Shown here piece by piece: positions 158-34,537 of a DNA stretch of 35,283 bases. The number at the start of each line of letters is the position of its first letter. The stretch's first letter is position 1. The notes under the pieces were generated by a model. It made no database searches and was not told the DNA's origin. It saw nothing but the letters and a program-made list of their open reading frames with translations. The DNA is from Pseudomonas sp. G.S.17 (lineage in GTDB: Bacteria > Pseudomonadota > Gammaproteobacteria > Pseudomonadales > Pseudomonadaceae): NCBI RefSeq assembly GCF_038096165.1, contig NZ_CP151077.1, forward strand, positions 1 to 35,283, given 5' to 3'. A program made the position numbers and the translations under genes.

Positions 158-1468
158 ATGGATTCAACCTCAAAAAAACAAGGCACGTTCGTCCAGCAGG
201 ACGACAGACTGCGAGACCTGCCCACGGCAGGGGCATACACGCCTTCGGCGCGTTTCTCCGAGGACGGCACGGCACTTAACCGCGTCGTCATCGAGGCGCC
301 CTATCTCGCACGTTGCAGCGATAACAAGACCGCCACGCTGGTACGTCCACGCGACTACGCGATCCGCTATCCCTACATGCAGATCAACCGCAGTGGGATG
401 GTGTCGTGGCTGATCTTCGACCTCGACCATGCCAACTCCCTAGCCTGGGACGATGCGGGCCTTCCACCGCCGAACCTGATCGTGCGGAACCGGAACAACG
501 GCCACTCGCACCTTTACTACGCCATTCCCCCGGTCTGCACGACCGAGAACGCCCGAGACAAGCCGATCCAGTACATGAAGGCGGTTTACGAGGCCTTCGC
601 GCTGCGCTTGAACGCCGATCCGGATTACCACAGCGGCCCTGTCGCCAAGACTCCAGGGCATCCATGGTGGTCGACCTCAGAACTGCATAACCACGTATAC
701 GACTTGGGCGAGCTGGCTGACTATGTAGAGCTGCAAGTATCGCCCTGGAAGACGGGCCCCCAGTTGGACGACCTCCCGCACTCCCGGCACTGCATTCTGT
801 TCGAACAATTGCGCTACTTCGCGTACAGCATCGTGAACCAGGAGCGCGGGCGCGGCACGCTTGCCACGTTCACGCGGCGACTGGAGGCATTCGCGCACAA
901 CCACAACAAGTTCGCCCGTGCAGGGTTCTCGCACGATTTGATGCAGTCATCCGTAAGGGCGACGGTCAGATCCGTGGCGCGTTGGACGTGGACGCGCTAC
1001 GAGGGCAGCGCAAAATGTTGCCGGGGAGCGATGGAGCTAGATAAGTCGTTGCCGTTGGCCGAGAGGCAGAGCCTGGCGGCGAAACGTACCCACGGCCTAC
1101 GACACAAGGCTACCGAATCGAAGATCCGCGCGGCATGCAGGGGACTCCAGGAGCGAGGCGCGAAGCTTACACAAGCCTCGATAGCCGCCCTTGCAGGCGT
1201 CTCCCGGCAAACGGTTGCCACCTATGGCCACGTCCTGAAGGAAGTCTCGCGGCCGCAGACAATCGCAGTCCTGCACACCGGCAAAGCCGTTGAAATGCAA
1301 TCAAAAACCGTCGCCGGCGCCGGCGATCGAGGACGCGAATGCAATCATTCCGCGTCCCAGGCTCGCGCAGCTCTGGATGTTAAAGATGGTGTACATCAGA
1401 TAACAGCCCCCTTTGGGGCCGCTCTTGATTTTGCCCTTGAAGGTTCTGAAAGTGAGGATTCTTCATAG
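158..1468 (+). CDS. repA: replication initiator RepA, ColE2/pPT23A-like
   Basis: This is the plasmid replication protein, 436 aa. ColE2-type Rep binds the origin and makes the primer RNA itself. Visible family features are a primase-like block with FDLDHANS near residue 87, NGHSHLYYAI near 114, and GPVAKTPGHPWW near 160 followed by YDLGELADYVEL, as in the Replicase family. A helical segment and an HTH (about residues 336-360, LTQASIAALAGVSRQTV) would bind DNA. The length fits RepA of pPT23A-family plasmids (about 430-440 aa). The start at 158 has GGAG at 151-154; an in-frame stop lies at 128. The ribosome site sits in a small hairpin behind the antisense target. Oddly, the last 60 codons carry one 44-bp-spaced repeat (residues 378-396) and then the origin-like sequence, so the C-terminus may be shaped by DNA function rather than by protein function. 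Confidence 0.88.
   Translation: MDSTSKKQGTFVQQDDRLRDLPTAGAYTPSARFSEDGTALNRVVIEAPYLARCSDNKTATLVRPRDYAIRYPYMQINRSGMVSWLIFDLDHANSLAWDDAGLPPPNLIVRNRNNGHSHLYYAIPPVCTTENARDKPIQYMKAVYEAFALRLNADPDYHSGPVAKTPGHPWWSTSELHNHVYDLGELADYVELQVSPWKTGPQLDDLPHSRHCILFEQLRYFAYSIVNQERGRGTLATFTRRLEAFAHNHNKFARAGFSHDLMQSSVRATVRSVARWTWTRYEGSAKCCRGAMELDKSLPLAERQSLAAKRTHGLRHKATESKIRAACRGLQERGAKLTQASIAALAGVSRQTVATYGHVLKEVSRPQTIAVLHTGKAVEMQSKTVAGAGDRGRECNHSASQARAALDVKDGVHQITAPFGAALDFALEGSESEDSS
1294..1347 (+). repeat. 44-bp-spaced motif pair, element A
   Basis: AATGCAATCA occurs at 1294-1303 and again at 1338-1347, start-to-start 44 bp. The 34-bp spacer holds the palindrome GCCGGCGCCGGC and ends in CGATCGAGGACGCG, a 14-bp string also found in element G (22656-22709, opposite orientation). 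It lies inside the 3' end of repA, 47 bp before the origin-like sequence. It is one of eight such elements in the plasmid. Confidence 0.85.
1381..1440 (+). other. ColE2-like replication origin (oriV) candidate
   Basis: The stretch around 1395-1426 contains ATCAGATAACAGC followed by a GCCCC-CTTT-GGGGC hairpin and a T-rich tail. As I remember it, the minimal ColE2 origin has the same order (TCAGATAACAGC, then a C-rich/G-rich hairpin) and lies just after rep. Here the sequence is still inside the repA frame (about residues 412-423). The resemblance is from memory of the family; the role as origin is inferred. Confidence 0.55.
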
Positions 1469-1533
1469 TGCCGGGGAGTGGTGTGTGAAGTGTGTTGTCG
1501 GAGTGCAGTAGGGACGGAGTGTTAAAGGTGGTT

Positions 1534-2292
1534 ATGGCTATTGATTGGAAGGTTGTAGGGTGGCTCACGTCCTATGACCGCATGCTGGGAACGATGAAAG
1601 ATCGCGAGTTGGCACGGATTCTCGGTACTACTAGGGAGCGGATCCGTTTGCGGCGTGTTGCGTTAGGTATTGCGGCGTTTACTGTCGATGAGGCGATTGA
1701 GCCTTACCGGGATTTGCTGGGGGTTGAGACGGACGCCCATGTCGCCCGCCTCAGTGGCGTGTCCTCATTCAGCGTCGCGGCATACCGGCAGGCGCAAGGG
1801 ATAGCGGCTCGGCCCCGTAGGACTTCACTCAAACGAGTGAAGCCCATTCCAGCAGATCATCCAGTGCGGCCCTACCGGAGCGTCCTGGGACTAGTGCCTG
1901 ACGAAGACATTGCGCGAGTTGCTGACGTAGCGATTGTGGCGGTCACTGCTTTGCGTGAAGCCTGGGAGCTGGGGGAGGCTCAGCCGTTGGCCGAACCACC
2001 CAAGCAAACACCCATGCCCAACTACATCGGGCCTTGGCTTGGGTACGAATCGCTATTCGGCACTATGTCTGCTGCGAAGATCAGCAGGGCTGTTGGAGTG
2101 CCATTCGCGGTGGTGCAGAGCCGACAGGAATTCTTGGGCGTGAAGCCGTATCAGCGAGTTTCGCGCCTTGCTCGCTACTCGCATCTGTTGGGCGCTGTTT
2201 CAGATGGCGTGCTGGGGAAGCTGGCAGGTGTATCACCGTCCCGAGTTGCGGATTACCGCGCACAGAAGGCGGCAGAGCGCGAATCCTCGTAA
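1534..2292 (+). CDS. protein with five HTH-like repeats
   Basis: I do not recognise a named family for this 252-aa protein. It consists almost wholly of five degenerate repeats of about 37 aa, at residues 11-46, 55-91, 111-147, 167-204 and 211-247. Each runs as aromatic residue, xLLG, acidic or small residue, LARLxGVS, xVxxYRxxxGI, which looks like a helix-turn-helix module where the LARLxGVS part is helix-turn and the YR helix is the reading helix. A tandem DNA-binding protein is the likely reading. The start at 1534 is chosen for AAAGGTGG at 1524-1531; a GTG at 1492 would add 14 residues. It directly follows repA and may be expressed from the same side. Function is unknown; a link to plasmid maintenance or to the dispersed repeats is only a guess. 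Confidence 0.75.
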   Translation: MAIDWKVVGWLTSYDRMLGTMKDRELARILGTTRERIRLRRVALGIAAFTVDEAIEPYRDLLGVETDAHVARLSGVSSFSVAAYRQAQGIAARPRRTSLKRVKPIPADHPVRPYRSVLGLVPDEDIARVADVAIVAVTALREAWELGEAQPLAEPPKQTPMPNYIGPWLGYESLFGTMSAAKISRAVGVPFAVVQSRQEFLGVKPYQRVSRLARYSHLLGAVSDGVLGKLAGVSPSRVADYRAQKAAERESS

Positions 2293-2449
2293 AAGTGGCG
2301 GTGTTGCATGCTGCGACTAACTCAGATTTCAACGTAGCGCGTCCTTTCGGACTGCTATGACCTCAAAATTGCGATACGGCAACCAAGCGGCTACCGCGCC
2401 CACGGGCTTGGTGGCTGTTGAACGTCAGCGCGACAAGTCACCCTGCCCT

Positions 2450-2599
2450 TCAACAGCTCAATGGAAATGCAATCAAATTGGGTTCCTGCAGGATCTGCCC
2501 GGGTTTAAAAATGCAATCAAAACCCCGGCAACCCAGACCGATCACCGCCACGACTGCAAACAGAACGATAGCTGCGTACTGAGTTGATATTGTTTTCAT
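2450..2599 (-). CDS. small single-TM membrane protein
   Basis: This 49-aa frame starts MKTISTQYAAIVLFAVVAVI, giving one hydrophobic segment at about residues 8-24. AGGA lies 9 nt before the start. It is the last of four small minus-strand frames that follow each other closely (3239, 3028, 2759, 2599). Its C-terminal 20 or so residues are encoded by dispersed element B, so the native end of the gene may have been replaced when that element arrived. A GCTGTTGAA/TTCAACAGC inverted repeat (2414-2457) overlaps its end and could be a weak terminator. No function can be assigned. Confidence 0.5.
   Translation of the reverse strand: MKTISTQYAAIVLFAVVAVIGLGCRGFDCIFKPGQILQEPNLIAFPLSC
2466..2519 (+). 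repeat. 44-bp-spaced motif pair, element B
   Basis: AATGCAATCA lies at 2466-2475 and 2510-2519, again 44 bp apart. The spacer has the palindrome CCTGCAGG, and its TCCTGCAGGATCT core is shared with the second spacer of element F at 21414-21447. It overlaps the 3' end of the small minus-strand gene ending at 2450. Confidence 0.85.
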
Positions 2600-2609
2600 A
2601 GCTGTTTTC

Positions 2610-2759
2610 CTATGCCCGGTCACGAATCCAGAAGACACAGCCAGCAACGATGCAGGCCAGTCCGATTGCTGCCGAACCGTACAAAGCAAGCCCCTCGGTG
2701 AATAGGCCGACAACGCAAAATGCGATTCCTGGGAACATCAGTGTTGTACTGCGATCCAT
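2610..2759 (-). CDS. small two-TM membrane protein
   Basis: This 49-aa frame is under the usual length cut-off. It begins MDRSTTLMFPGIAFCVVGLF and has two hydrophobic stretches (about residues 8-22 and 28-43), ending in a basic FWIRDRA. The stop lies 10 nt before the next start at 2599, and AGGGA is about 8 nt upstream of its own ATG, so it fits the small-gene cluster. Tiny membrane proteins in such a cluster could act in surface or entry exclusion, but nothing in the sequence shows that. Confidence 0.5.
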   Translation of the reverse strand: MDRSTTLMFPGIAFCVVGLFTEGLALYGSAAIGLACIVAGCVFWIRDRA

Positions 2760-2854
2760 GTGATTTTCCCTGCTCGATCATGAGGGTCGAAAGTGACCCT
2801 GCTCCTACTGCCTCGGCCCAGCATTGCTGGGCTTGGGCGTACCTGGGCGTTTTC

Positions 2855-3028
2855 CTAAGCGTCCACGTCTTCCCGACGGGGGATGAAGAAAACAACTGCC
2901 GCGATCAGAAAGCCCACTATTGAGAGGCCTACCATCCACTTCGGTACTGCACCTTCGTTTATGACGGCGTACAAAACCGGGGCTTGGCAAAGGATGAATA
3001 CAGCTAACGCGATTCGAAGGTTATGCAT
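2855..3028 (-). CDS. small two-TM membrane protein
   Basis: The 57-aa product starts MHNLRIALAVFILCQAPVLY and has two hydrophobic segments (about 5-22 and 31-48) followed by a charged tail PRREDVDA. The ATG at 3028 overlaps the stop of the upstream gene (TAA at 3023-3021), which suggests translational coupling; an alternative ATG at 3058 lacks a better ribosome site. No family is recognised. Confidence 0.55.
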   Translation of the reverse strand: MHNLRIALAVFILCQAPVLYAVINEGAVPKWMVGLSIVGFLIAAVVFFIPRREDVDA

Positions 3029-3239
3029 GTTTCGAAGGCCATGGTTTCGGCTTGTCATAACCACGTTTAGTCTGCATGGACGGTTGCTTTTGGGACTCCA
3101 CCAGAGTGCGAGTAAACGTAGTTTGACCGGCGCTGGTTGGGCCAAAAGTCAGCAAGTGGGTGTACTCGCTTGTAGTGAGCTTCAGCGCGTCATAAGCCGG
3201 TTTCTGTTCCGCTTGTGGTTTGAAGGTCATGGTCTGCAT
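3021..3239 (-). CDS. hypothetical small soluble protein
   Basis: The 72-aa frame starts MQTMTFKPQAEQKP with GAGGA 7 nt upstream; longer versions of the frame run back to 3401 but lack such a site and would cross the big inverted repeat. It is basic and proline-rich at the C-terminus (KPKPWPSKHA). It contains LLTFGPTSAGQTTFTRTLVES, loosely like a P-loop but without the lysine of a true Walker A. It heads the four-gene minus-strand cluster. Confidence 0.45.
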   Translation of the reverse strand: MQTMTFKPQAEQKPAYDALKLTTSEYTHLLTFGPTSAGQTTFTRTLVESQKQPSMQTKRGYDKPKPWPSKHA

Positions 3240-3355
3240 TTTAAATCCTCGGTTGCCGGACGCGAAAATCGCTGTCCCTTTACGACCTTGGCCCCGGCTG
3301 TTTGACGGCCAGGGCTTGGGTACAGCGGGCGATTTTTCCTTTGCTTCGTTGCTTC

Positions 3356-3435
3356 GTTGCTGCATTGGTAAAGCGTTCATTGGACTGTCCCCGGCCAGCA
3401 TGATTGGGCAATGAACGCTTTACCAATGCAGCAAC
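3356..3435. repeat. 27-bp perfect inverted repeat with 26-nt loop
   Basis: The arms at 3356-3382 and 3409-3435 are exact reverse complements over 27 bp. They lie downstream of the gene at 3457-3984 and upstream of the gene starting at 3239, so the hairpin can separate two minus-strand transcripts. There is no T tract next to the stem, so it is not a standard intrinsic terminator. Arms this long and perfect in an intergenic gap are unusual. Confidence 0.85.
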
Positions 3436-3456
3436 TAGGAGCTGGCACTTTCTCGC

Positions 3457-3984
3457 TTAGTTAGAGGACTTTGCGGCGGCCGCCACGAGTCCAAGCTTTT
3501 TGCCTGCGGTGACCTGCTCGACGCCTGCCGCCGTGCCATCAGCAAGCGCCTGAGCGACCTTTTCGGCAGTTAGCTTGTTCTTGTAGCCCTTCGCGTCCGT
3601 TCGCTGCGCTGAACCAGTCACAGACTTGCCATTTTTTACGACATACAAACGGCGTCCACCTGACTTCAACTCAAACCAGACGATCCAGTCGCCTTCTGTG
3701 GCTTTTGAAGGATCAGCAACAGGCGACCAAGACAACGAACCATCGTGTTCGCGGACTACAGCTATAGCCTCGGCTAAGGCACTACCACGTCGCTTAGCCG
3801 AAGCCCAAGCTTGACTTGGTGTTTCGTACAGCACAGCACTCTCCAGGCAACAAGCCCACACGCTCGGCGCTGCATGCACTAGAAAGCCGCCCTCTAGGTC
3901 GCTTTCTACGGCGTAACCGATTACTTCGGCAGCTTGCGCTTTGGACTTGGGATGCTTACCGCCCTCGATCACTCGTAAGTTCAT
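3457..3984 (-). CDS. hypothetical protein, 175 aa
   Basis: No family is recognised. The protein has no signal peptide or membrane segment. The middle (about residues 95-125) reads GDWIVWFELKSGGRRLYVVKNGKSVTG, probably a small beta-rich domain, and the C-terminus is alanine-rich and helical. GGAG lies 8 nt before the ATG. It is the last gene of the minus-strand group 4660-4193-3984 and is followed by the 27-bp inverted repeat. Confidence 0.7.
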   Translation of the reverse strand: MNLRVIEGGKHPKSKAQAAEVIGYAVESDLEGGFLVHAAPSVWACCLESAVLYETPSQAWASAKRRGSALAEAIAVVREHDGSLSWSPVADPSKATEGDWIVWFELKSGGRRLYVVKNGKSVTGSAQRTDAKGYKNKLTAEKVAQALADGTAAGVEQVTAGKKLGLVAAAAKSSN

Positions 3985-4007
3985 GCACGAATCTCCGTGA
4001 ATTCAGT

Positions 4008-4193
4008 TCAAAACAGCCAATCAAGGGTGGTGTCGCGCGTATCGCGCGGATGATCTGATGTTGCTGGACGATCAAACTCCTCACGGCAAGGATCGCACAA
4101 CGTGTAGCAAACACCGGCAGTTGTATAGCTACGGGCGGTTGGCTGATCCGTTCGGCAGCGATCGCAGCAAAGACAAAGCGATTCCATGCTCAT
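4008..4193 (-). CDS. small Cys-rich (zinc-ribbon-like) protein
   Basis: The 61-aa product carries paired cysteines, CLCCDRC near residues 7-12 and CYTLCDPC near 29-36, the spacing of a small zinc ribbon. Its ATG overlaps the TGA of the upstream gene (ATGA) and AAGGAG stands 8 nt before it, so the two are translated together. The role is unknown; DNA or protein binding through zinc is plausible. Confidence 0.65.
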   Translation of the reverse strand: MSMESLCLCCDRCRTDQPTARSYTTAGVCYTLCDPCREEFDRPATSDHPRDTRDTTLDWLF

Positions 4194-4660
4194 AGTTGCA
4201 ACTCCTTTGCTAATTTTTCTGAAAATGGGTAAACCGTTCTAGCTTCTGTGCGCGCTGGGTCAGCGCCTAACTGTATCCAGCTTTCATCATCGTTCCAGCT
4301 GACGATGTTGTCTTTCAGGCCACCGCAGTAAGTGCCGATGGATCCTGGCTCGCTGTGAGCAGTAATGTTCGTGCAGCGGAGCCCGCCATTGTGCGTGATA
4401 GTGGGCTCAAGGTTGCAATCAGGACAGCCCTTGATACCGCCCTGTAGCCGTAACTCACGCTCCAGCTCGATCAGCTCGGCGCGCTTGTCCGCAACCTTGA
4501 GGATCTTTTTCAGGCGCTCTACGAATTCCTCGTTACCGTCCGGATCTTCGTGATACAGATCGACAAGCGTACTGTGCAGATCGGCGCGTGTTGCGACTGG
4601 CCGGGATCCGTAACCGGCATCGATCAGCGCCTTTTGAACTTCAATGTCTTCGGGTTCCAT
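4190..4660 (-). CDS. hypothetical protein with cysteine pairs
   Basis: The 156-aa protein has an acidic helical first half, with a likely coiled segment FVERLKKILKVADKRAELIELERELRL at about residues 47-73 (given here only as a region), and a second half with CPDC, a single Cys in LRCTN and CGG that could bind a metal. It begins 17 bp inside element C, which covers its upstream region. AGAGG lies about 7 nt before the ATG. The stop overlaps the next start. No family is recognised. Confidence 0.65.
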   Translation of the reverse strand: MEPEDIEVQKALIDAGYGSRPVATRADLHSTLVDLYHEDPDGNEEFVERLKKILKVADKRAELIELERELRLQGGIKGCPDCNLEPTITHNGGLRCTNITAHSEPGSIGTYCGGLKDNIVSWNDDESWIQLGADPARTEARTVYPFSEKLAKELQL

Positions 4661-4677
4661 AAACCAGCCTCTCCGTT

Positions 4678-4731
4678 TGATTGCATTTCCGTCAACCAGG
4701 TGAACCTGGCCACGTCCAAAACGATTGCAAT
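4678..4731 (-). repeat. 44-bp-spaced motif pair, element C
   Basis: TGATTGCATT at 4678-4687 and CGATTGCAAT at 4722-4731 are the motif in reverse orientation, 44 bp apart. The spacer has the palindrome CCAGGTGAACCTGG and resembles the spacers of element F (first) and H through GACGTGGCCAGGTT (read on the minus strand). It lies just upstream of the gene starting at 4660. Confidence 0.8.
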
Positions 4732-4744
4732 TAGTTGTTCATGC

Positions 4745-5005
4745 TCATCCTTCAAATAAATCGGTTTGCGCGGCCAGTTCCGCGACCTGAACGCAAGCTT
4801 GGCTAAGGCTGCGCATTGCTTGCTGGTGTGTACGCAATTGCAACTCCAGTGCGGCTATACGCGTCTCTGCCTGGGCCAGCTCTTGCGAGGCAGTGACGCC
4901 GATTTGAGCTGCTTTAACCAGGGCACCGGTTGCTGTGGTCTTGCCGGTCAGAGCTTTGAACTGCTCAACGTCGCTTTCGGCCAAATCACGGATGGTTAGA
5001 GCCAC
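4745..5005 (-). CDS. small coiled-coil protein
   Basis: The 86-aa product has an N-terminal segment TIRDLAESDVEQFKALTGK and then a long helix (about residues 38-80) rich in A, Q, E and L with heptad-like spacing, so a dimeric coiled coil is likely. The start is GTG at 5005 with GGAGG 8 nt upstream. Element D begins 15 bp upstream. It looks like a small plasmid DNA-binding or regulatory protein, but no family is certain. Confidence 0.6.
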   Translation of the reverse strand: MALTIRDLAESDVEQFKALTGKTTATGALVKAAQIGVTASQELAQAETRIAALELQLRTHQQAMRSLSQACVQVAELAAQTDLFEG

Positions 5006-5019
5006 GTATTATCCCTCCA

Positions 5020-5073
5020 TTTGCAATCATTCTGTCGTGCCGGCAGCTGCTCGATCGGCCAGCTTTGCAATCA
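5020..5073 (+). repeat. 44-bp-spaced motif pair, element D
   Basis: TTTGCAATCA lies at 5020-5029 and 5064-5073, 44 bp apart. The spacer has the palindromes GCAGCTGC and CGATCG. It lies upstream of the minus-strand gene starting at 5005. Confidence 0.8.
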
Positions 5074-5103
5074 TTTAGACCTTTGAGGCCCAGGCCGAAA
5101 GCG

Positions 5104-5160
5104 ACTATCAGTTATCTATAGCCATATAATAGCACTGATAGTTTTGGTATGTCACTATCA
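5104..5160. promoter_or_regulatory. A+T-rich control region with inverted repeat
   Basis: ACTATCAGT (5104-5112) and ACTGATAGT (5134-5142) form a 9-bp inverted repeat, and ACTATCA recurs at 5154-5160. A TATAAT box (5125-5130) lies between the arms. This is the only A+T-rich stretch between the divergent genes 5005 (minus) and 5258 (plus), so it probably holds their promoters and a repressor site. The -35 boxes are not clear. Confidence 0.4.
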
Positions 5161-5257
5161 AATTGTCTGTTGCCACTAGATAAAAGATAGATTATCGTAG
5201 CAGGCATAAAACCAGTGTTATTTGATAGCCAACCACTACAAGCGCGGAACAAGTCGA

Positions 5258-5437: not shown

Positions 5438-5451
5438 GAAAGGAGTCAGAC

Positions 5452-5892
5452 ATGAAGGCAGCTACCAGAACCCAAAATTTCGGCCCAGCAATTCCTCTAA
5501 TTTTTCTGTTCGCAATAGGAGGCGGGATTCTCTCTTCGTGGATCCTCAACACCTTCAACCTAGGGATGGAGATTTCCGGCCTGACCCAAGGTGCGTTGGT
5601 GTACTACATCACAAGCATGATCATTTCGGCGGGCCTTCTGATCGCGTACAAGGCACCGAGGACGGTAGGCATCTTTCTGGCCTTCTATCCGTTCGGCCTC
5701 GGCGGGATCTTCTTCGTAGGATTTAACAGCACCCTTGTAGATCCATCCGAGGCGCCGAATCAATTAGCAGACGGATTTGCAGCGATGCAGGTTGTCATGA
5801 TGCAAATGTTCGTTTGGATTATTCCCGCTGTTGTGCCCAGCTATTACATCTATAAATCCAGACTCAACGCGCCCAAGCCTGAGGGCAAATGA
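5452..5892 (+). CDS. four-TM membrane protein, unknown
   Basis: The 146-aa product has hydrophobic segments at about residues 12-31, 44-64, 72-92 and 110-130 and a short basic C-terminus. AGGAAAGGAG precedes the start. Its stop overlaps the recombinase start (ATGA), so membrane protein and recombinase are translated as a pair, an odd partnership. No family is recognised. Confidence 0.7.
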   Translation: MKAATRTQNFGPAIPLIFLFAIGGGILSSWILNTFNLGMEISGLTQGALVYYITSMIISAGLLIAYKAPRTVGIFLAFYPFGLGGIFFVGFNSTLVDPSEAPNQLADGFAAMQVVMMQMFVWIIPAVVPSYYIYKSRLNAPKPEGK

Positions 5893-6518
5893 AAGCACAT
5901 ATCTATCTAAGGGCATCGACAAAAGACCAGGACGCCGACCGGGCCAAGGCCCAGTTGCTGGACTTCGCGGCGGATAGCGGCTTCCAGATCGCCGGAATCT
6001 ACAGTGAGAACATTTCAGGAACCAAGCTCCAGCGGCCGCAGCTGATGAAGCTGTTAGCCGCGGCTGATCCGGGGGACGTGTTGTTGGTCGAATCCATTGA
6101 TCGTCTGTCCAGGCTCAGCCAAAGCGATTGGGCTCGCCTCAAGCAGATCCTGGCAGAAAAGCAGCTCCGGTTGATTGTGGTCGACCTGCCCACGACCCAC
6201 CTACAGGCAGACAGCAGCATCACCGGCCAGATCATGGCGGTTATCAACGATATGTTGATCGACCTCACTTCGACCATGGCCCGCCTCGATCAAGAGAAGC
6301 GTGTCGAGCGGATCCGCCAGGGCTTGGCGAACAAGCGCGCTCAGGATCCGGACTGGACGCCTCCAGGCAAGCAAAAAAACGCGGAGCTATGGCAGTCGAT
6401 AGAGCGGCTGCTTAGCAAACTGCCCACGGCCTCAGCAGATGAAATTGCCAAGTTGGCATCATGCGGAGTGGCAACAGTGTATCGGGTGAAGAAATCAATT
6501 AAAGAACGAAGCAGTTAA
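5889..6518 (+). CDS. serine recombinase (resolvase/invertase family)
   Basis: The 209-aa protein has the resolvase catalytic domain: YLRASTKDQ with Ser10 as the nucleophile and Arg8, then IDRLSRLS with Arg72 and Arg75, and the long E helix region around residues 120-145. The C-terminal part (about 165-205) ends in SADEIAKLASCGVATVYRVKKSI, a helix-turn-helix as in Tn3/Hin resolvases. The length is typical of a small resolvase. It could resolve plasmid multimers or move nearby modules. Unlike most resolvases it sits inside an operon of membrane proteins. No obvious res site lies next to the gene; the dispersed 44-bp-spaced elements are a possible but untested target. Confidence 0.85.
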   Translation: MKAHIYLRASTKDQDADRAKAQLLDFAADSGFQIAGIYSENISGTKLQRPQLMKLLAAADPGDVLLVESIDRLSRLSQSDWARLKQILAEKQLRLIVVDLPTTHLQADSSITGQIMAVINDMLIDLTSTMARLDQEKRVERIRQGLANKRAQDPDWTPPGKQKNAELWQSIERLLSKLPTASADEIAKLASCGVATVYRVKKSIKERSS

Positions 6519-6530
6519 AGGAATAACGCA

Positions 6531-6788: not shown

Positions 6789-6796
6789 GAGACGGT

Positions 6797-7210: not shown

Positions 7211-7221
7211 AAGGTAAGTCC

Positions 7222-9914: not shown

Positions 9915-9926
9915 AGTTGTGAAATG

Positions 9927-9976
9927 ATTGCAATCGGCTCGCGAGCTCGATCAACCAGGTCGAGTGAATGCAATCA
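9927..9976 (+). repeat. motif pair, element E (40-bp spacing)
   Basis: ATTGCAATCG at 9927-9936 and AATGCAATCA at 9967-9976 are 40 bp apart, the one exception to the 44-bp rule. The spacer starts with the palindrome GCTCGCGAGC. It lies 7 bp past the stop of topA. Confidence 0.75.
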
Positions 9977-21359: not shown

Positions 21360-21457
21360 AATGCAATCAAATCTGACGTGGCCAGGTTGACCAGGTGCGC
21401 GGAAATGCAATCAATCGTAAGTCCTGCAGGATCTTCCAGGGCGAGTAAATGCAATCG
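21360..21457 (+). repeat. 44-bp-spaced motif triplet, element F
   Basis: AATGCAATCA at 21360-21369 and 21404-21413 and AATGCAATCG at 21448-21457 give two exact 44-bp intervals, so the elements can be chained. The first spacer matches that of element H in 31 of 34 positions (opposite orientation), and the second shares TCCTGCAGGATCT with element B. Confidence 0.9.
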
Positions 21458-21526: not shown

Positions 21527-21597
21527 AGCTGTGTTGGTGGCATGCAGAAGGCCACTCGACTCCGAGCAGGCCAGTCATGCTGGCAACGGGGAACGAG

Positions 21598-21885
21598 ATG
21601 AAGCTTTCAGATGTTGCGACCATCCATACGAACTTTCCAGAGGCGCATTTCTGGCTTGTTCGTAGGGGCTCAGCGGAGCGATGCGGCGAACCGGTACGAG
21701 AGTTCAACCCTGAACATATCGGCATCCAGGTAAACCGATTAGACCTCTTGCTCCCGGACTATCTCTTTTACGCCTTGATGCACGTTCACCGAGGCGGGTA
21801 CTGGAAGATGTTAGCGACGGGCACACTGAGTTTGGTCAACATCCGTGTTTCAGACGTTCGTCATATCGAGCTGTCACCACGGTGA
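21598..21885 (+). CDS. short protein like a type I restriction S-subunit half-domain
   Basis: The 95-aa product starts MKLSDVATIHTNFPEAHFWL (GGGGA is 6 nt upstream; an ATG at 21577 is less likely). The second half, VNRLDLLLPDYLFYALMHVHRGGYWKMLATGTLSLVNIRVSDV (region about 44-87), resembles the end of a target-recognition domain of type I restriction specificity subunits, where the polypeptide reads DPxYLxYxL, then GxxxxxxI, xxLxxIxI. It is far shorter than a full S subunit and no hsdM or hsdR is present. It may be a free-standing DNA-recognition or decoy protein. The twin operator before it implies tight control. Confidence 0.55.
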   Translation: MKLSDVATIHTNFPEAHFWLVRRGSAERCGEPVREFNPEHIGIQVNRLDLLLPDYLFYALMHVHRGGYWKMLATGTLSLVNIRVSDVRHIELSPR

Positions 21886-21986: not shown

Positions 21987-22235
21987 ATGCCACCGGTTCT
22001 ATTGTTTATGATACTGGCGGGAATGACGTTCGTGCTTTACCCGTTCGTGCATGACTTTGCGGGCTACCTTTTCGCGTATCCCATCGACTGGTTGGGGTGG
22101 CCTGGGGCTCTTACGCAAAGTTTTTTATTCAAGGCCAGCAGCGCGCTAGTTTCGTACTTTTTGGCGGGATTCGTGTTCATGTTTATCCGTTGGGTAGCGT
22201 CAATACCCAGCCGAAGGAGTGACAATGAAAATTGA
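21987..22235 (+). CDS. two-TM membrane protein
   Basis: The 82-aa product starts MPPVLLFMILAGMTFVLYPF and has two hydrophobic segments (about 3-24 and 46-70), with a polar end. The ATG at 21987 follows GAGGGTG; a GTG at 21981 is the alternative. It overlaps the next gene by 11 nt. No family is recognised. Confidence 0.6.
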   Translation: MPPVLLFMILAGMTFVLYPFVHDFAGYLFAYPIDWLGWPGALTQSFLFKASSALVSYFLAGFVFMFIRWVASIPSRRSDNEN

Positions 22236-22644
22236 TCTACCGAGCATTCAAGATCAGCACCGGCTGATTTTCGAAGAGGCTACCAGGGAGGCTGTCGCGC
22301 AGTTGCAAGCGAATCTAGAAGCGCCGAGGCTCCCCGCCCAGGACTTAGTAGACGAAAGCCTTTACCCGCGCGCGCACTTGCTGCGCGAGCATGAAGGCTG
22401 GGAGGCTCCGGATCCGGTCGTTGTGAAAGCGTATTTCCGGCACTTTCAGGACTTGTTCCCCGATTACGGAACAGACGCCAAGCTGGCCCAGTTACTGGGC
22501 CTTAAGAGCGCTGGAGCGGATAGACGAATCAGGGCATTCAAGGACGGCAGCAAGAAGCCGCCTTACGGCGTCTGGAGGCGATTTCTGGTTATGACCGGGC
22601 GGGCTCCCCAGGAGGTAATCCGCGTGCTGGGGTTCTTGGCGTAA
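22225..22644 (+). CDS. hypothetical protein with an HTH-like C-terminal domain
   Basis: The 139-aa product starts at 22225 with AAGGAG 5 nt upstream. The C-terminal half has FPDYGTDAKLAQLLGLKSAG, then RRIRAFKDGSKKPPYGVWRRFL, which looks like a Cro/CI-type helix-turn-helix where the second stretch is the recognition helix and the YGVWRRFLVMTG part closes the fold. It is therefore a probable DNA-binding protein. It overlaps the membrane-protein gene and is followed, 11 bp after its stop, by element G. Confidence 0.6.
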   Translation: MKIDLPSIQDQHRLIFEEATREAVAQLQANLEAPRLPAQDLVDESLYPRAHLLREHEGWEAPDPVVVKAYFRHFQDLFPDYGTDAKLAQLLGLKSAGADRRIRAFKDGSKKPPYGVWRRFLVMTGRAPQEVIRVLGFLA

Positions 22645-22655: not shown

Positions 22656-22709
22656 TGATTGCATTCGCGTCCTCGATCGTTGGCGCCGGCATGGCCTTTT
22701 GATTGCATT
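22656..22709 (-). repeat. 44-bp-spaced motif pair, element G
   Basis: TGATTGCATT at 22656-22665 and 22700-22709, 44 bp apart, minus orientation. The spacer shares GCCGGCGCC and CGATCGAGGACGCG with element A. The 200 bp after it (22710-22884) show no gene. Confidence 0.85.
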
Positions 22710-27423: not shown

Positions 27424-27436
27424 GTAAGGGGATTAC

Positions 27437-29121: not shown

Positions 29122-29131
29122 GGGGTGGTCT

Positions 29132-29902
29132 ATGACAGCCATTGCGGATGAAAAAGAAATTAAGAAAAACAGTGACAGCGAGGTTCCGAAAAAGAACGCT
29201 GCGTTGAATGCTGCAAATAACCGTTACCTGCTAATCATCATTCTGTTGTTGCTGGGCCATTTCGTGGAAGGTTGGGTAAATGCGTCCAACTTTTCAAAAG
29301 CGCAGAACAACAAAGAAATCGTCTACGTCAAGCTGTACCCGGATGGCACCTCTGACGTTAGCGAATTCAAGCCGGAAGATGAACAGCTCTACTTCCGTTC
29401 GACGATTGACGCAGCACTTGAGCGATTCGCAAAAGCTCGCTACGGCCAACAGCCGGAAACCATTCGCCGCAATTACGGTGAAGCAGGCGTGTTTATGTCT
29501 GACCCGTTGATGAATGACTTCGTGAGCACTCAGCCAGGGGGCTTCAATGCGAGTCAGAAGGCCGTCGATATTGCGGCAGACAAGAACTCTGATCGGATAG
29601 ATGTTGAATGGGGCTTTGCAGACCACTACGACCGCATTCCGGCAGTGTTTGAGAAGAAAGCAGGCGAAGTTATCCGGTCGAACGTTTACCTCACTATCAC
29701 GACCAGGAACGCGGGCGGAATTATCAAAGGCACCCCGGAGAAAAAGATTCTCCGTGTGCAATGGCGCCTGTTGCCGAAAAAGGCATTGGCAGAGAAGAAA
29801 ATGGATTGGTTACGAATTAACCCTATCGGTCTTGAACTGGTCGAGTACGACTTGATTGACGATCCGGCAGGCTACAACAGCGCAGAGGTCAAAGCACAAT
29901 GA
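29132..29902 (+). CDS. virB8: VirB8-like T4SS protein
   Basis: The 256-aa product has one hydrophobic anchor (about 33-47, YLLIIILLLLGHFVEG) and a periplasmic domain with mixed helix and strand, as in VirB8/TrbF, which nucleates the channel. The second half (NVYLTITTRNAGGI, ILRVQWRLLPKK) fits the NTF2-like fold of the family. It overlaps virB9 by 4 nt. The identity is not as strong as for virB9 and virB10 and rests partly on position. Confidence 0.7.
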   Translation: MTAIADEKEIKKNSDSEVPKKNAALNAANNRYLLIIILLLLGHFVEGWVNASNFSKAQNNKEIVYVKLYPDGTSDVSEFKPEDEQLYFRSTIDAALERFAKARYGQQPETIRRNYGEAGVFMSDPLMNDFVSTQPGGFNASQKAVDIAADKNSDRIDVEWGFADHYDRIPAVFEKKAGEVIRSNVYLTITTRNAGGIIKGTPEKKILRVQWRLLPKKALAEKKMDWLRINPIGLELVEYDLIDDPAGYNSAEVKAQ

Positions 29903-30741
29903 ACAAGTTAATCACCAACGTAGGCACAACCGTTTTGCTGCTGGCTGCTGCTGTATCCGCAGAAGCCGCAACTTGCCGTGTTATTCACTGGAAGCCTGAT
30001 TCGGTTTTGCAAATCAATACCGCAATGAATTTGGGTACTCGTGTTGAGCTTCCAGCGGACACCATCACGGATCCGGTTTCCAGCTCCACGCTTTGGGACA
30101 CGGAAGGCGCATCGAACCAGATCGTCATCAAGCCGAACAGCAATGAGCCACTGGGGGAGTCCGCCGTCATCCGCGCCTGGACTTCGGACGGCAACTCCTA
30201 TGACATCATGGCGAATCGCGTAGCAGCCGCGAAGAACGACATTTGCGTCAAGATCGTAGCGGACGGCATGTTCTTCACCCCTGGCGCACGCGCTGCGCTT
30301 AGCGCTCAGTCGTCCAACATGGCTCAGGGGGCGGCAGCAGCAGGGGTGCAGGCTCAGCAGTTGCAACAGCAGCTGGCCCAGGTGAAGCGTCAGGCCGAGG
30401 ACGACAAGAAGAAAGCCGTTATGGAAGCGCTGCGCCGGTTCCGCTACCACGTTTACACCCGTTACAGCTGGGATCAGGGTAAAGGCTTCGCGGCTCAGAA
30501 CATCATTTCGGACGTGTACGACGATGGTCGATTCACTTACATCCGCTTGAACACTCCGAACCGTGGCCTACTTTCCGTTGAGACGGAAGTTGGTGAAAAG
30601 AACGCCGTTGTACCTACTAAGTACGACGACGCTTACGGTATGTATGTTATCTCGGGCATCTACCCAAGTTTCACCCTTAGAGCTGACGAAGCGAAGATCA
30701 ATATTTCGCGGGCCGATAGCAAAACTCACGGCGAGTTCTAA
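29899..30741 (+). CDS. virB9: VirB9-like T4SS core protein
   Basis: The 280-aa product starts with a signal peptide ending VSAEAA and has the conserved C-terminal stretch RFRYHVYTRYSWDQG and VYDDGRFTYIRL seen in VirB9/TrbG. With VirB10 and VirB7 it forms the outer-membrane core. A Q-rich helical linker (about 150-172) lies between the N-terminal and C-terminal domains. Confidence 0.85.
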   Translation: MNKLITNVGTTVLLLAAAVSAEAATCRVIHWKPDSVLQINTAMNLGTRVELPADTITDPVSSSTLWDTEGASNQIVIKPNSNEPLGESAVIRAWTSDGNSYDIMANRVAAAKNDICVKIVADGMFFTPGARAALSAQSSNMAQGAAAAGVQAQQLQQQLAQVKRQAEDDKKKAVMEALRRFRYHVYTRYSWDQGKGFAAQNIISDVYDDGRFTYIRLNTPNRGLLSVETEVGEKNAVVPTKYDDAYGMYVISGIYPSFTLRADEAKINISRADSKTHGEF

Positions 30742-30750
30742 GGGGGATTT

Positions 30751-32169
30751 ATGACAGAAGAATCATCGCCTCGGGTTGAGGAAAAACCCGCGACACATAA
30801 AAGGAAGGTTCAACTGTGGTTATGGGCCTCGGCTGGTGTAGTGCTGACGCTGTTGTTGGTACTGACCGCGATGAACATCTATCAAAAGATGAATGGCGGA
30901 CTTACTAAAACACGGCCAGAGCCTGCCCCTGTAGCTGGTTCCAAACCTGGGAGCGATAAGCAGGATCAGTTCAATCAACTGTTGAGCAACCGGAAGCCTA
31001 CCGTCCGCTCCGAAATCGAACCGGCTCCGGCTGGGTCGTTGGAGGAACAGCTCAACAACATCAAAGGCGGCGCTGCTCCAGCTGCTAAAACTGGGCGCCT
31101 CGGCGGGCAGGAAGGGGAGAACGACACCGTTTCGATGGAAGAGAAGTCCCTCCGCCAGTGGAAGGCCCGCGAAGCCCTTCGCGCCTTGGATAGCGCGAAA
31201 ACCAAGTGGGGCCTTGAGAAGGTGAGCAAGTCGGGGTCAGCGGCATCCAGTGGGGCTCATAGCTCACCAGCGCTGGCTAACGCACCGGCAGCGGCTAGCG
31301 GCGATATGAATGCACAGATCGCGCAACTCAACAGGCCGTTCACCGAAGGCGCAAGCCTGGAGCAACGCCGCGAAGAGGTTCGTCAGCGGATCAACGAGGC
31401 TCAGAAGCTGCGCGCGTCTCTTGCAGCCAATGGCGCCGCTGGGTTGCCCCAGTCGGGCCCACGTCCGATGGATCGCGTGCAAGTTCGGCAAGACCTGCAA
31501 CAAGTGTCGTCAGGCTTTAACAAACCGCCTGAGAACGTAGTCGGCTACACCGAGGACAATCAGTACAACGCTGATATCGCGGGCAAAATGAAAATGCCGC
31601 CCGGAACGGAAATGACGGTTACGTTAACGAAGAAAGCGATTTCCGATTACATGAATTCTTCGCTAAAGGCCATTGTTAACCGCGACGTTTACGACATTAC
31701 TCGCCAGTACGTTCTTGTTCCGAAAGGCACAGAGATAAATATCGGCATTCTGCGAGTTCGTAACGTCAACGAAGCAATTTCTAATCGCATGGCGTTCATG
31801 GTCAAAAACGCAGTTCGACCAGACGGCAAAGTCATCGACTTTACCAAGTCGGCATCGGTTGCCGACCGCGAGGGCGTAGGCGCTATTGAAGATCAGACCG
31901 ACTATCACTTCATGGCGCAGTTCTTGGGTGTTGCAGCGTACGCGCTGGTAGGAACTCAGAGCAGCTATTCAGGTACTGGCGATAAAGAAGGTAGTTATGC
32001 CGGTGATGTTGGAGAGAATAGCCGCGAGCAGTTTGCACCGCTGGTTCAGAAGTATTTGAACATTGTCCCAACTCAAACAATTCGCCCAGGACAGAGCATG
32101 CAAATTGTCCTTGAGAAAGAAGTCTACATCGAACCTTGGAGCGATCTTTATGCGAAATATGTTGATTAA
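30751..32169 (+). CDS. virB10: VirB10-like T4SS core protein
   Basis: The 472-aa protein has one TM segment (about 26-46), a long proline- and alanine-rich linker (about 50-250) and the TrbI/VirB10 domain at the end, with PPGTEMTVTLTKKAISDYMN, then YVLVPKGTEINIG and IRPGQSMQIVLEKEVYIEPW. It bridges inner and outer membranes. The frame is intact. It overlaps the next gene by about 20 nt. Confidence 0.92.
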   Translation: MTEESSPRVEEKPATHKRKVQLWLWASAGVVLTLLLVLTAMNIYQKMNGGLTKTRPEPAPVAGSKPGSDKQDQFNQLLSNRKPTVRSEIEPAPAGSLEEQLNNIKGGAAPAAKTGRLGGQEGENDTVSMEEKSLRQWKAREALRALDSAKTKWGLEKVSKSGSAASSGAHSSPALANAPAAASGDMNAQIAQLNRPFTEGASLEQRREEVRQRINEAQKLRASLAANGAAGLPQSGPRPMDRVQVRQDLQQVSSGFNKPPENVVGYTEDNQYNADIAGKMKMPPGTEMTVTLTKKAISDYMNSSLKAIVNRDVYDITRQYVLVPKGTEINIGILRVRNVNEAISNRMAFMVKNAVRPDGKVIDFTKSASVADREGVGAIEDQTDYHFMAQFLGVAAYALVGTQSSYSGTGDKEGSYAGDVGENSREQFAPLVQKYLNIVPTQTIRPGQSMQIVLEKEVYIEPWSDLYAKYVD

Positions 32170-32527
32170 AACACTGTGCGCTTTGGCATTCGTTCCAATG
32201 GTTTCTTTTGCCCAGGACGCGAAGACAGCGAAGCCTTACATCATGGATCCGCTGTCGCTGTACGCGCGCACCGTCTACCCGGAAGACGCTAAGACCGTGG
32301 GTGACGCTGCACGTTATCTGCTGGAGCCAACAGGCTATCGACTGGTGACGAACTACCCGGCGCCGAATGATGCCGTCTCATTGGCAGGGGAGCGCATCCC
32401 TCCCATTGCGAAGGTTCACCGCACCATGCCGATTATTGATGCGCTGCAACTGCTGATCGGTACAGATCATTGGATTGTGATTGATCGCAATCACAGGCTC
32501 ATTTCGTTCTCGGAGAAAAAGTCGTGA
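32150..32527 (+). CDS. PilL/TcpQ-like periplasmic protein in the T4SS operon
   Basis: The 125-aa product has a signal sequence and then a domain reading LYARTVYPEDAKTVGDAARYL, GYRLV, and HRTMPIIDALQLLIGTDHWI and VIDRNHRLISF, which resembles the N-terminal domain of PilL/TcpQ-type proteins that support secretin complexes. Full PilL is longer; this is a stand-alone domain. The ATG at 32150 has GGAG 8 nt upstream. Placement between virB10 and virB7 suggests it is part of the outer-membrane core. The match is from memory, moderate. Confidence 0.55.
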   Translation: MRNMLIKTLCALAFVPMVSFAQDAKTAKPYIMDPLSLYARTVYPEDAKTVGDAARYLLEPTGYRLVTNYPAPNDAVSLAGERIPPIAKVHRTMPIIDALQLLIGTDHWIVIDRNHRLISFSEKKS

Positions 32528-32718
32528 TGAAAACTATTTTGCTGATTAGTGCAATCGCCGTCTTAACGGGTTGCACATCGACAAGCGTTGTAGGCACTGG
32601 TGACTTTTTCAATCTGAACAGCCGCAACGTTGTTTACCGTGACCTCACTCGGCCTGTGAGCGTTGATAATGAGCCGGAGCAAACGAACTATGTCGTTCTT
32701 CCAGCCGCAACTAAGTAA
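32527..32718 (+). CDS. virB7: VirB7-like lipoprotein
   Basis: The 63-aa product starts MKTILLISAIAVLTGCTSTS, a lipoprotein signal with lipobox LTGC (Cys15). A small outer-membrane lipoprotein next to virB9 and virB10 is what VirB7 is, stabilising VirB9. The start ATG at 32527 shares a base with the previous stop (TGATG); a GTG at 32524 is the alternative. Its end overlaps the virB1 gene. Confidence 0.65.
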   Translation: MKTILLISAIAVLTGCTSTSVVGTGDFFNLNSRNVVYRDLTRPVSVDNEPEQTNYVVLPAATK

Positions 32719-33460
32719 GACGCTGATCGTGTGTTCGCTGCTCCTGGGCATGACTGCCCAGGTCAGCGCAGCCGATGCAGAAGCGCCGAATACTGACGAG
32801 CTTTACGAGTACTTGTTTCCGGAGGCTCGCGGATCGGCGCACGTCGCCGCAGCCCCTAGCGCAGTGCCTGGGGCTTCGGCCCCGGCGCCGCGACCAATGT
32901 CCGCGTTCCGCGATCAGAATCGCCGCGCGAGCTGGTCAGAAGACCAGATCCAGGCAATGAAAGGGGCATTCAAGGCCAAGGAACCGGCACCGGTTGAGCG
33001 TCAGATTGCCGGTGCCGTTGCTGTACCGGCTCAGTCGAGCCCGTTCGACGCTGCATCGGTCAGCTTGGGAGACAGGCCTTTCGCGGATCTGATCCAGGTG
33101 TACGCAGCGAAACGCAATCTGAACCCGCGCCTCGTTAGCATGATGGTTAAGCAAGAATCCCGCAGCGACCCGAACGCCATTAGCCCCAAGGGGGCTCAAG
33201 GGCTGATGCAGCTCATGCCGGATCTGTCGAAGCAATTCAACATCGACCCGTTTGATCCGGAAATGAACATCAAAGTCGGTACCCAGTATTTCGCTGATTT
33301 GCTCGCGAAATACGGGCAAGTCGAACTGGCTCTGGCTGCGTACAACGCAGGCCCTGGGGCAGTCGATAAATACGGCGGCATTCCGCCGTTTTCCGAGACG
33401 CAGAACTACGTCAGCACGATCATGGCGGGTGTCGCGCAGCTGGAGGCGAACAATCAATGA
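32690..33460 (+). CDS. virB1: VirB1-like lytic transglycosylase
   Basis: The 256-aa product has a signal peptide (MSFFQPQLSKTLIVCSLLLG) and a C-terminal SLT domain: LNPRLVSMMVKQESRSDPNA with the catalytic Glu in KQES, then SPKGAQGLMQLMP, and ALAAYNAGPGAVDKYGG, which are all signature pieces of lytic transglycosylases. It opens the peptidoglycan for the channel. The start at 32690 is chosen for the signal peptide and GGAG at 32676-32679; 32669 is also possible. It lies unusually at the end of the operon. Confidence 0.9.
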   Translation: MSFFQPQLSKTLIVCSLLLGMTAQVSAADAEAPNTDELYEYLFPEARGSAHVAAAPSAVPGASAPAPRPMSAFRDQNRRASWSEDQIQAMKGAFKAKEPAPVERQIAGAVAVPAQSSPFDAASVSLGDRPFADLIQVYAAKRNLNPRLVSMMVKQESRSDPNAISPKGAQGLMQLMPDLSKQFNIDPFDPEMNIKVGTQYFADLLAKYGQVELALAAYNAGPGAVDKYGGIPPFSETQNYVSTIMAGVAQLEANNQ

Positions 33461-33783
33461 AACGGCTAATTCTGCTGGGGCTATTGGTATCTGGAAGCGC
33501 GTTCGCAGGTAGCGAATTCGACTTCGATTACAACGACAAGAACGACATGCGCGGTGCTTACAAAATGTGCGCTACCACGGGGTTTACTCAGGGCGACTGC
33601 CCGAAGGTTTATCAGAAGTGCTGGCAGCCTCCGATGATCTACCGCAAGAAGCATAAGACCAAAACCTATTGCGTCGACGCACCTAGTTTTAGCGTCAGCG
33701 ACAGCGACAAAGATCGCTACCTGGACGAAGGCGCACGGCGAGCCAACGAGAATTCCGACGAGAATTCCGATTCCGATCAGTAA
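33457..33783 (+). CDS. exported Cys-containing protein at the end of the T4SS operon
   Basis: The 108-aa product has a signal peptide (MKRLILLGLLVSGSAFA) and a small mature domain with four cysteines (YKMCATTGF, GDCPKV, QKCWQP, TYCVDA) and an acidic, asparagine- and serine-rich end (NENSDENSDSD). It overlaps virB1 by 4 nt. Together with the 27437 protein it is a second exported Cys protein of this operon. No family is recognised. Confidence 0.65.
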   Translation: MKRLILLGLLVSGSAFAGSEFDFDYNDKNDMRGAYKMCATTGFTQGDCPKVYQKCWQPPMIYRKKHKTKTYCVDAPSFSVSDSDKDRYLDEGARRANENSDENSDSDQ

Positions 33784-33818
33784 AGCTTTTTGAAGTAGGC
33801 CGCTTGCGAATTTCGCCT

Positions 33819-33947
33819 AGCGGTTGCGTCACCTGCTTAGTGGTGGGGGGCCGGGGCATCCGGCAGCAAGTTGTAGACCGCAAACAGGTTCTGTCAGCGG
33901 TCGCGTCACCTGCTTAGTGGTGAGCTGGCCGGGGCATCTGGCACCAA
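33819..33947 (+). repeat. two tandem ~51-bp repeats
   Basis: A unit of about 51 bp beginning AGCGGT and containing GCGTCACCTGCTTAGTGGTG recurs at 33819-33869 and 33896-33947, 77 bp apart, with a few differences. Each unit also has GGCCGGGGCATCYGGC, a 5-bp stem. They lie between the T4SS operon and the gene at 33993, in a 209-bp gap with no other feature, and may be a terminator pair or a regulatory RNA. Confidence 0.75.
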
Positions 33948-33992
33948 ATTCAAGTACCAAAACATTCAATGACGACACCGAGGGACACACCG

Positions 33993-34211
33993 ATGGCAAC
34001 TGAAACCAAAGCAAAAGTCCGTTACGACGCTCTGATCCCACACGAATACAAATCCGGCGAAGAGACAAAAACCGCCTGGACGAAGGTCGGTGCCGCATTC
34101 CCGACAGCGGACGGGAAGGGCTTCAATGTGGAGCTAACGCCGAACATCGCCGTCAGTGGTCGCATCGTTTTGCGTGTGTACGAACCAAAGCCACAACCAG
34201 CAGCAGAGTAA
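33993..34211 (+). CDS. hypothetical small beta-rich protein
   Basis: The 72-aa product starts MATETKAKVRYDALIPHEYK at 33993 with AGGGA 7 nt upstream. The middle reads TAWTKVGAAFPTADGKGFNV and ends SGRIVLRVYEPKPQPAAE. I recall this pattern, WTKVGxAFPxxDGKGF, then GRIVLR, from small conserved proteins of plasmids and phages of unknown function. No signal or membrane segment. Confidence 0.65.
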   Translation: MATETKAKVRYDALIPHEYKSGEETKTAWTKVGAAFPTADGKGFNVELTPNIAVSGRIVLRVYEPKPQPAAE

Positions 34212-34483
34212 GGCCCGCCCAGGCCCGCTAACGCGCGCCAGGGCACGAACATGCGTTACCCGTCACGAAGAGCGGTCAAGGGGTTGGAGCGGCCCGCAGC
34301 GAAGCGAGGACACGGCCCCTTGACGGCTAGAAGTGGCAGCAGCCTCCGCTAGGGAGGCTGGGGAAGGCTTCACCCCCCAGCTTCCCGACGCCTCGCGGGC
34401 AAGAGCGGGTTTGGAGAGAAGGCGCCGAAGGCGTCGCGAGAGGCGGGCAGAGCCCGGCCTCTTGAAAGACAGACAGCTTAGTT
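34212..34483. other. gene-free G+C-rich stretch with hairpins
   Basis: About 270 bp (up to 34567 with element H) without a credible gene. TCAAGGGG (34277 on) pairs with CCCCTTGA (34316 on) across about 30 nt, and AGCCTCC/GGAGGCT forms a short stem near 34340-34356. The open frames here have arginine-rich composition set by G+C. It may hold terminators for the 33993 gene. Confidence 0.45.
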
Positions 34484-34537
34484 TGATTGCATTTCCGCGC
34501 ACCTGGTCAACCTGGCCACGTCGCAATTGATTGCATT
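34484..34537 (-). repeat. 44-bp-spaced motif pair, element H
   Basis: TGATTGCATT at 34484-34493 and 34528-34537, 44 bp apart, minus orientation. The spacer read on the minus strand is 31 of 34 identical to the first spacer of element F. It lies 30 bp before the gene at 34568. Confidence 0.9.

Follow-up and report, generated by a model that had tools for sequence, protein, structure and literature searches.

Box pairs spaced by 44 bp across a Pseudomonas plasmid and the small RHH-like protein that very probably reads them

The second contig of the assembly of Pseudomonas sp. G.S.17 (GCF_038096165.1, NZ_CP151077.1) is a complete plasmid of 35,283 base pairs (bp), here called the window, beside a first contig, the chromosome, of 6,237,492 bp. 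Short repeats are dispersed over this plasmid in pairs at a fixed distance, and the question they raise is which protein reads them and to what end. A first-pass annotation had proposed a protein-bound composite site, used for recombination, segregation or global regulation. The comparisons described below point to the product of a gene on the plasmid itself (4745-5005, minus strand), a small protein resembling the ribbon-helix-helix (RHH) regulators. The elements are probably composite sites of this RHH-like protein, which would act both as an autoregulator and as a regulator of genes plasmid-wide.

All 17 copies of the 10-bp motif reported by the first-pass annotation are present, and the core, TGCAATC, lies inside that motif, 2 bp past its plus-strand start. 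The core occurs 23 times in the window against 7.35 expected, a number reached in none of 100 shuffles, and forms eight exact same-strand pairs with a spacing of 44 bp. The unit of the element is an 8-bp near-palindromic box, TGCAATCA, readable on both strands. When this box is sought on either strand with at most one mismatch per pair, all nine intervals (Table 1) measure exactly 44 bp; a fixed box orientation was given up after inverted and everted pairs had turned up. The reported spacing of 44 bp stands, whereas the single 40-bp exception is an orientation artefact, the minus box at 9925 and the plus box at 9969 being 44 bp apart. One additional, mismatch-bearing pair at 43 bp (2512/2555), from the same two-strand scan, is taken as chance. 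Mononucleotide shuffles, 60 in number, contain no box pairs. In the strain's own genome, cores with 33-41 bases between them form nine pairs on the plasmid and none on the chromosome, with none in the reversed control, and TGCAATCA occurs 18 times in the window as against seven times in 180,000 bases of chromosome. The statement that the motif occurs only between modules or at gene ends holds except for the element at 1296-1347, which sits within the rep open reading frame (ORF) 158-1468.

The core pair is not unique to this plasmid, since a search of the genus found an exact 44-bp TGCAATC pair in 35 of 398 genomes, the strain's own included. In 27 of these 35, the pair is one recurrent sequence with TGCAATC(G/A)ACGGTGTA at its start, unlike the plasmid elements. 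A search must take in the interior and the protein as well. No description of such an element was found among the matches listed from the open-access literature, including the excerpted text of PMC5304414, a search by box letters saying little in itself.

Repeats in related plasmids were sought by a k-mer pair scan that presupposed no motif. The TGCAATC pair at 44 bp recurs in pBS1142 and Drgb7; the relatives without it, CP133299, CP016851, MK621012 and CP034081, have TGCTATC instead, likewise at exactly 44 bp. Plasmids with TGCAATC/TGCAATCA are referred to as A-type, and those with TGCTATC/TGCTATCA as T-type. The paired elements of one plasmid have a single common box, TGCAATCA or TGCTATCA, that is swapped plasmid-wide; at the 3' end of rep, A-type and T-type plasmids have corresponding elements with a one-base difference in the box. 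Because the change is concerted across the plasmid, it points to a trans-acting reader. The first-pass annotation would have been contradicted by relatives without conserved motif or spacing; the 44-bp geometry is in fact kept in them. Individual elements have counterparts too. The place of element 1 is also occupied by an element in p11K1 (at 38 bp), CP034081 and MK621012, the interior words of element 4 are shared with pBS1142 and Drgb7, and pBS1142 has, at a place similar to that of elements 6 and 7, two elements on either side of a gene for 92 amino acids. Within the window, elements 9 and 6 have 40 identical bp in common.

When the ORFs of the window were compared with those of relatives, the product of 4745-5005 was found to split by box type. 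Its orthologue is present in all eight element-bearing plasmids first compared, the window included, and a box pair lies within 1.5 kb of its gene in nine of the nine plasmids compared. Plasmid pZM21 was picked by its A-type protein first and was then found to hold TGCAATC pairs at 44 bp. Queries of the plasmid collection with one T-type and one A-type copy returned nine and four records, comprising the plasmids already compared, inovirus-like replicons and a P2-satellite-like element of Pseudomonas; in the replicons and the satellite-like element the perfect palindrome TGCTAGCA stands on both sides of the gene, again at 44 bp. Four loci (L063, L069, L088 and CP093282) were used from among the matches listed in a scan of genome contigs. 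Divergent copies of the protein go with TGATATCA or TGGTACCA boxes. The strain's own chromosome provides an instance at about 2,903,650-2,911,630 (L271:7646-15631), with two RHH-like gene copies about 7.5 kb apart and TGGTACCA pairs at 44 bp. Zot and G2P-type genes adjoin these copies, which to all appearance belong to a co-resident inovirus with a box unlike the plasmid's. The recombinase encoded at 5889-6518 was considered as the reader and ruled out, its identity not tracking box type: it is 89% between the A-type window and one T-type plasmid and 73% between the window and another A-type plasmid, and Drgb7 has no match at E 1e-5.

In the IMG/VR database, TGCTAGC pairs at 40-48 bp accompany the gene in all 31 loci that encode the family, with none in one shuffle of each, and 30 of 40 loci retrieved by the pair alone encode the RHH-like family. 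The association extends to the residues of the presumed DNA-reading strand, which were tabulated for 43 distinct proteins with DNA, excluding identical repeats and proteins without the strand pattern. ALTIR goes with TGCAATCA in five of five proteins, (T/I)LTLR with TGCTATCA in six of six, (L/M)LTIR with TGCTAGCA in 26 of 26 (many of them close relatives, not 26 independent events), HLIVR with TGATATCA in the one protein that has it, and LVKI(L/Q) with TGGTACCA in two of three; two LLTLR proteins are encoded at loci with both TGCTAGCA and TGCTATCA pairs. This co-variation bears indirectly on the idea of a dimer that would read DNA via the strand. In a follow-up made after the code had been noted, 198 genomes of the family, including the strain's own, were searched; nine gave a match, and the comparison took in 14 loci apart from the window. 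Of these 14 loci, 11, in six of the eight genomes, contain an exact TGNNNNCA pair spaced by 44 bp, as against none or one of 200 shuffles per locus, and each of the 11 has the box that goes with the strand type closest to its own. Only two of the 11 (ALTIR, LLTIR) bear a strand already in the table; the other nine bear the variants VLTIR, LVKFQ and LIKIP, seven of them being copies within two genomes. The remaining three loci, from two genomes, show pairs of the expected box once one mismatch or a spacing of 42-43 bp is permitted. As the box changes in step with the protein across unrelated plasmids and viruses, it is very probably the docking site of the RHH-like protein. The earlier idea of a protein-bound composite site is strongly supported by these sequence comparisons, and the likely reader is thereby named.

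The protein belongs to phrog_8031, a family of unknown function without a Pfam match. An AlphaFold2 model built from 44 sequences (predicted local distance difference test, pLDDT, 89.2) has non-helical residues 1-8, a helix at 9-19 and a helix at 24-84, with no strand assigned to the N-terminus in the monomer. The record of phage 36-2 labels its copy a "DNA-binding protein", described there as 7NUV-like. The model, together with weak Foldseek matches of which five of nine are chains that we take to be RHH or RHH-like proteins, suggests an RHH-like DNA-binding protein with a long C-terminal helix.

Where the elements lie relative to genes is consistent with a regulatory function. Of 26 elements in four annotated relatives, 24 lie between genes, although only 12-18% of positions are intergenic, and 16 of these 24 lie at most 150 bp upstream of a start as against 10.6 expected, a figure reached in 48 of 2000 random draws. 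Before the gene of the protein itself, a box with at most one mismatch starts no more than 45 nt upstream of the gene start at 18 of 21 loci, this near box has a partner 42-46 bp further upstream at 17, and at 16 there are two such pairs in tandem, the starts of the facing boxes being separated by 23-33 bp; of the two tandem pairs, one is present before the RHH-like gene of the window. This layout is conserved across plasmids and phages and therefore looks like an operator region. Of the uses that the first-pass annotation had offered, global regulation fits these upstream positions best, and recombination receives limited support. One dimer would occupy each 8-bp (pseudo)palindromic box, and the two boxes, with centres 44 bp apart, would hold or bridge the 36-bp interior, in the model perhaps through the long C-terminal helix. 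The pair just before the protein's own start would serve as an autoregulatory operator, and through the remaining sites the protein may regulate small-gene, establishment-type operons at module borders across the plasmid. Binding, dimerisation, helix bridging and repression are all predicted here from sequence and model.

Several observations weigh against this account. No curated RHH profile matches the protein above cut-off, and it is therefore called RHH-like and not an established RHH member. The family matching most N-terminal pieces is FitA-like_RHH (five of 18, best E 0.015), which does not match the window's own piece, and the other profile matches are noise of the coiled-coil type. 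Foldseek returned no significant match for the model, all of its weak matches having E > 7, and the re-examination with VIA-align covered 11 chains. Ten of the 40 IMG/VR loci with a TGCTAGCA pair have no family gene within the available stretch, four of the 21 loci lack a pair directly before the gene start, and seven of the 24 intergenic elements of relatives lie between converging genes, which is unexpected for an operator. An operator role also does not explain the palindromic lexicon of the interiors.

Known systems offer partial likenesses. The operators of KorB in plasmid RK2, TTTAGCSGCTAAA, are 13-bp palindromes bound by a ParB-family protein and are likewise dispersed plasmid-wide as sites of a plasmid regulator; a search for this palindromic motif along the window's plus strand, allowing up to two mismatches, found none. 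A ParB/KorB-like protein is disfavoured as the reader, since plasmids of both types encode it and it does not divide by box as the RHH-like protein does, and since no KorB-type operator was found. The sopC locus of F is a tandem array of units of about 43 bp at one locus; its period of 43-44 bp resembles the spacing seen here, but the present pairs are dispersed, with nine intervals at eight separate places. The interiors are unlike the acquired spacers of CRISPR (clustered regularly interspaced short palindromic repeats), since they recur between plasmids and within one plasmid. A closer likeness is to Reg of Bacillus plasmid p576 and of clade II pLS20-family plasmids, an RHH repressor of an establishment regulon (PMC8708921): it too is a small plasmid protein predicted to have the RHH fold, represses its own gene and several other promoters, has operators on one or both sides and governs a regulon with an anti-restriction gene, according to the excerpted text. 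This type of layout is seen here by position only, as an operator-like pair at the regulator's start and sites at other promoters, and the excerpt, which concerns Bacillus hosts, does not mention 44-bp paired boxes, palindromic interiors or a box code shared by phages and plasmids. StbA of R388, a homologue of TraK of RP4, acts at stbDR, with 9-bp repeats at two-nucleotide spacing in sets of five, whereas here there are pairs at 44 bp (PMC3098194, in part). An autoregulator with plasmid-wide operators is the simplest account, and it may be likened to Reg or StbA; the 44-bp geometry and the structured interiors are unmentioned in the excerpts on both.

The 36-bp interiors have AT-rich ends and a GC-rich middle. 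Words were counted in 47 non-redundant interiors, leaving out intervals of any length but 44 bp and, within a group, interiors with 75% or more identity to one already included, with CP093282 counted as one 42,440-bp unit and with bases shuffled within columns as the control. Six-bp palindromes number 85, about threefold the shuffle mean of 28.7 (maximum 45), and CCWGG numbers 38, about sixfold the mean of 6.0 (maximum 14). Twenty of the 38 CCWGG lie 7.5 bp from the interior centre; the position of the six-bp words is looser (of the 85, 41 at 5-7 bp from the centre and 11 at it), and both halves contain a word in 35 of the 47 interiors. Enriched words include GCCGGC, CTGCAG, CGATCG, TGGCCA, GGCGCC, CAGCTG, CCGCGG and CTCGAG, several of which are classic type II targets; this list derives partly from a phage set that includes gene-less loci and nested box repeats, and the counts in the 47 interiors are cleaner. 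Related interiors are found in either orientation relative to the boxes, and the box pairs themselves can be direct, inverted or everted, as expected of a reader with two-fold symmetry.

Such words invite the proposal, which we regard as unlikely, that the elements are restriction lures or sensors, with interiors made of target words of host restriction-modification enzymes and clamped by the element's own protein. As a sensor, cutting, methylation or occupancy would alter the grip of the protein and so switch establishment or anti-restriction genes; as a lure, the words would absorb the enzymes harmlessly. In its widest form, which we likewise hold to be improbable, Pseudomonas plasmids, filamentous phages and a phage satellite would share one module, in which a protein clamps islands of restriction-type palindromes with a private 8-bp box for each element, the islands reading or disarming host enzymes and switching establishment genes. 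The enrichment of palindromes and CCWGG, often with a word in both halves, is as this would predict; both CTGCAG, the sole GAGCTC and four of the five GCCGGC of the window fall within the masked element sequence of 480 bases; and genes annotated as antirestriction in Drgb7, P. silvicola p2 and CP133299 are preceded by elements at a distance of 87-88 bp. However, under-representation of the enriched words extends to the host chromosome (rho -0.41, as against -0.31 in plasmids and -0.37 in phages), which weakens the strong form of the idea, namely that elements keep sites of which the remainder of the plasmid has been purged. The link also fails to reach significance within GC-rich words (p 0.09); sequence outside elements shows no avoidance of CCWGG; CCGCGG, CTCGAG and GGTACC occur once each in the window and outside the elements, and 13 of 15 GGCGCC are outside. 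It is for these reasons that the idea is kept only as a rival. Moreover, four antirestriction proteins of relatives have no match in the window, and a purged plasmid would be safer without any sites. Recombination, with boxes or elements as joints for the gain, loss or duplication of small gene cassettes, is a still more doubtful explanation. A box marks the precise start of two duplications, one of 216 identical bp in CP133299 and one of 56 in CP034081. Ends of BLAST segments of at least 120 bp fall close to element edges in 71 cases, against 23.5 on average after shifting, with as many in one of 1000 shifts, and two elements of the window have a box in common at a place where those of pBS1142 enclose a gene. 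Yet no segment end lies near any element in the window, an intergenic position by itself favours segment ends, the recombinase fails to follow box type as described above, and no conserved crossover sequence was seen in the listed interiors. Least probable in our estimation is a centromere-like or architectural role, in which the protein would spread over or bridge the dispersed sites and so fold or segregate the plasmid. The nine dispersed intervals, a long C-terminal helix that in the model may be able to bridge, and the precedent of StbA on the direct repeats of R388 (PMC3098194, in part) speak for it, but ParA and KorB/ParB-like genes are already present on the plasmid, and it is not obvious that the inovirus-like replicons sharing this system would use a centromere.

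Table 1. Positions of the paired elements and of the RHH-like gene in the window
Feature	Position	Strand	Description
Element 1	1296..1347	+	boxes 1296, 1340 (+); interior GCCGGC, GGCGCC, GCCGGC, CGATCG; near the 3' end of the rep ORF, within it
Element 2	2468..2519	+	boxes 2468, 2512; interior CTGCAG, CCCGGG
Element 3	4678..4729	-	boxes 4678, 4722 (minus, one with mismatch); directly 3' of the RHH-like gene; 19 bp before ORF 4190-4660
RHH-like gene	4745..5005	-	86 codons, GTG start; product predicted to bind the boxes
Element 4	5022..5073	+	boxes 5022, 5066; 17 bp upstream of the RHH-like gene; interior GCCGGC, CAGCTG, CGATCG
Element 5	9925..9976	.	everted boxes 9925 (-), 9969 (+), 44 bp apart; interior TCGCGA, GAGCTC, CCAGG
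Elements 6 and 7	21362..21457	+	boxes 21362, 21406 (common middle), 21450 (mismatch); 121 bp upstream of ORF 21577
Element 8	22656..22707	-	boxes 22656, 22700 (minus); between ORF 22219-22644 and type IV secretion system genes
Element 9	34484..34535	-	boxes 34484, 34528 (minus); 33 bp upstream of ORF 34568

Some neighbouring features and repeats deserve mention. ORF 21577-21885, downstream of the double element, encodes a conserved small protein with 255 homologues at E<=0.001 (model pLDDT 53.7), and in three of four T-type plasmids its homologue is the next gene past the RHH-like gene. The suggestions that this product is HsdS-like and that ORF 4190-4660 is Lar-like were guesses, unsupported by sequence searches of Pfam, NCBIfam, PADLOC and PDB. 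No Rfam match was found in the window, including at 34275-34325, where a 38-51-bp segment with an inverted repeat is 94-97% identical to plasmids of Marinobacter, Vibrio, Acuticoccus, Phaeobacter and Yoonia. Among the related loci, L153, L155 and L156 also have direct TGCTATCA pairs with a spacing of 54 bp, roughly a helical turn more than 44; P. silvicola p2 (L149/L150) resembles a head-to-tail dimer of a 42,440-bp unit, and CP133299 (L153) has a large duplicated region. Other four-copy dispersed repeats, near-identical and in both orientations, are found in L154, L156 and L149 (GAGCCCT at 35 bp, GCCTGGG at 42 bp, CCTGCGG at 30 bp). Marinobacter plasmid pD15-8W (L161) carries TGTGACC repeats spaced by 46 and 49 bp, whose GC-rich interiors have similar words, and no homologue of the RHH-like protein was detectable in the 50 kb compared; P. 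aeruginosa pPH3PALO502 (L159:28865-31200) has repeats with a period of 104 bp (44 + 60), rich in GCCGGC, GGCGCC and CAGCTGG.

The non-random, palindromic interiors amount to a new puzzle, an unexplained cis-element. The co-variation of strand and box indicates a natural specificity code of strand residues with apparent intermediates, and the uncharacterised family phrog_8031 gains a likely DNA target. Unrelated mobile elements of Pseudomonas would thereby be tied to one regulatory module, within which elements residing in the same cell appear to keep separate boxes, TGCAATCA on the plasmid and TGGTACCA at the inovirus copies of its host.

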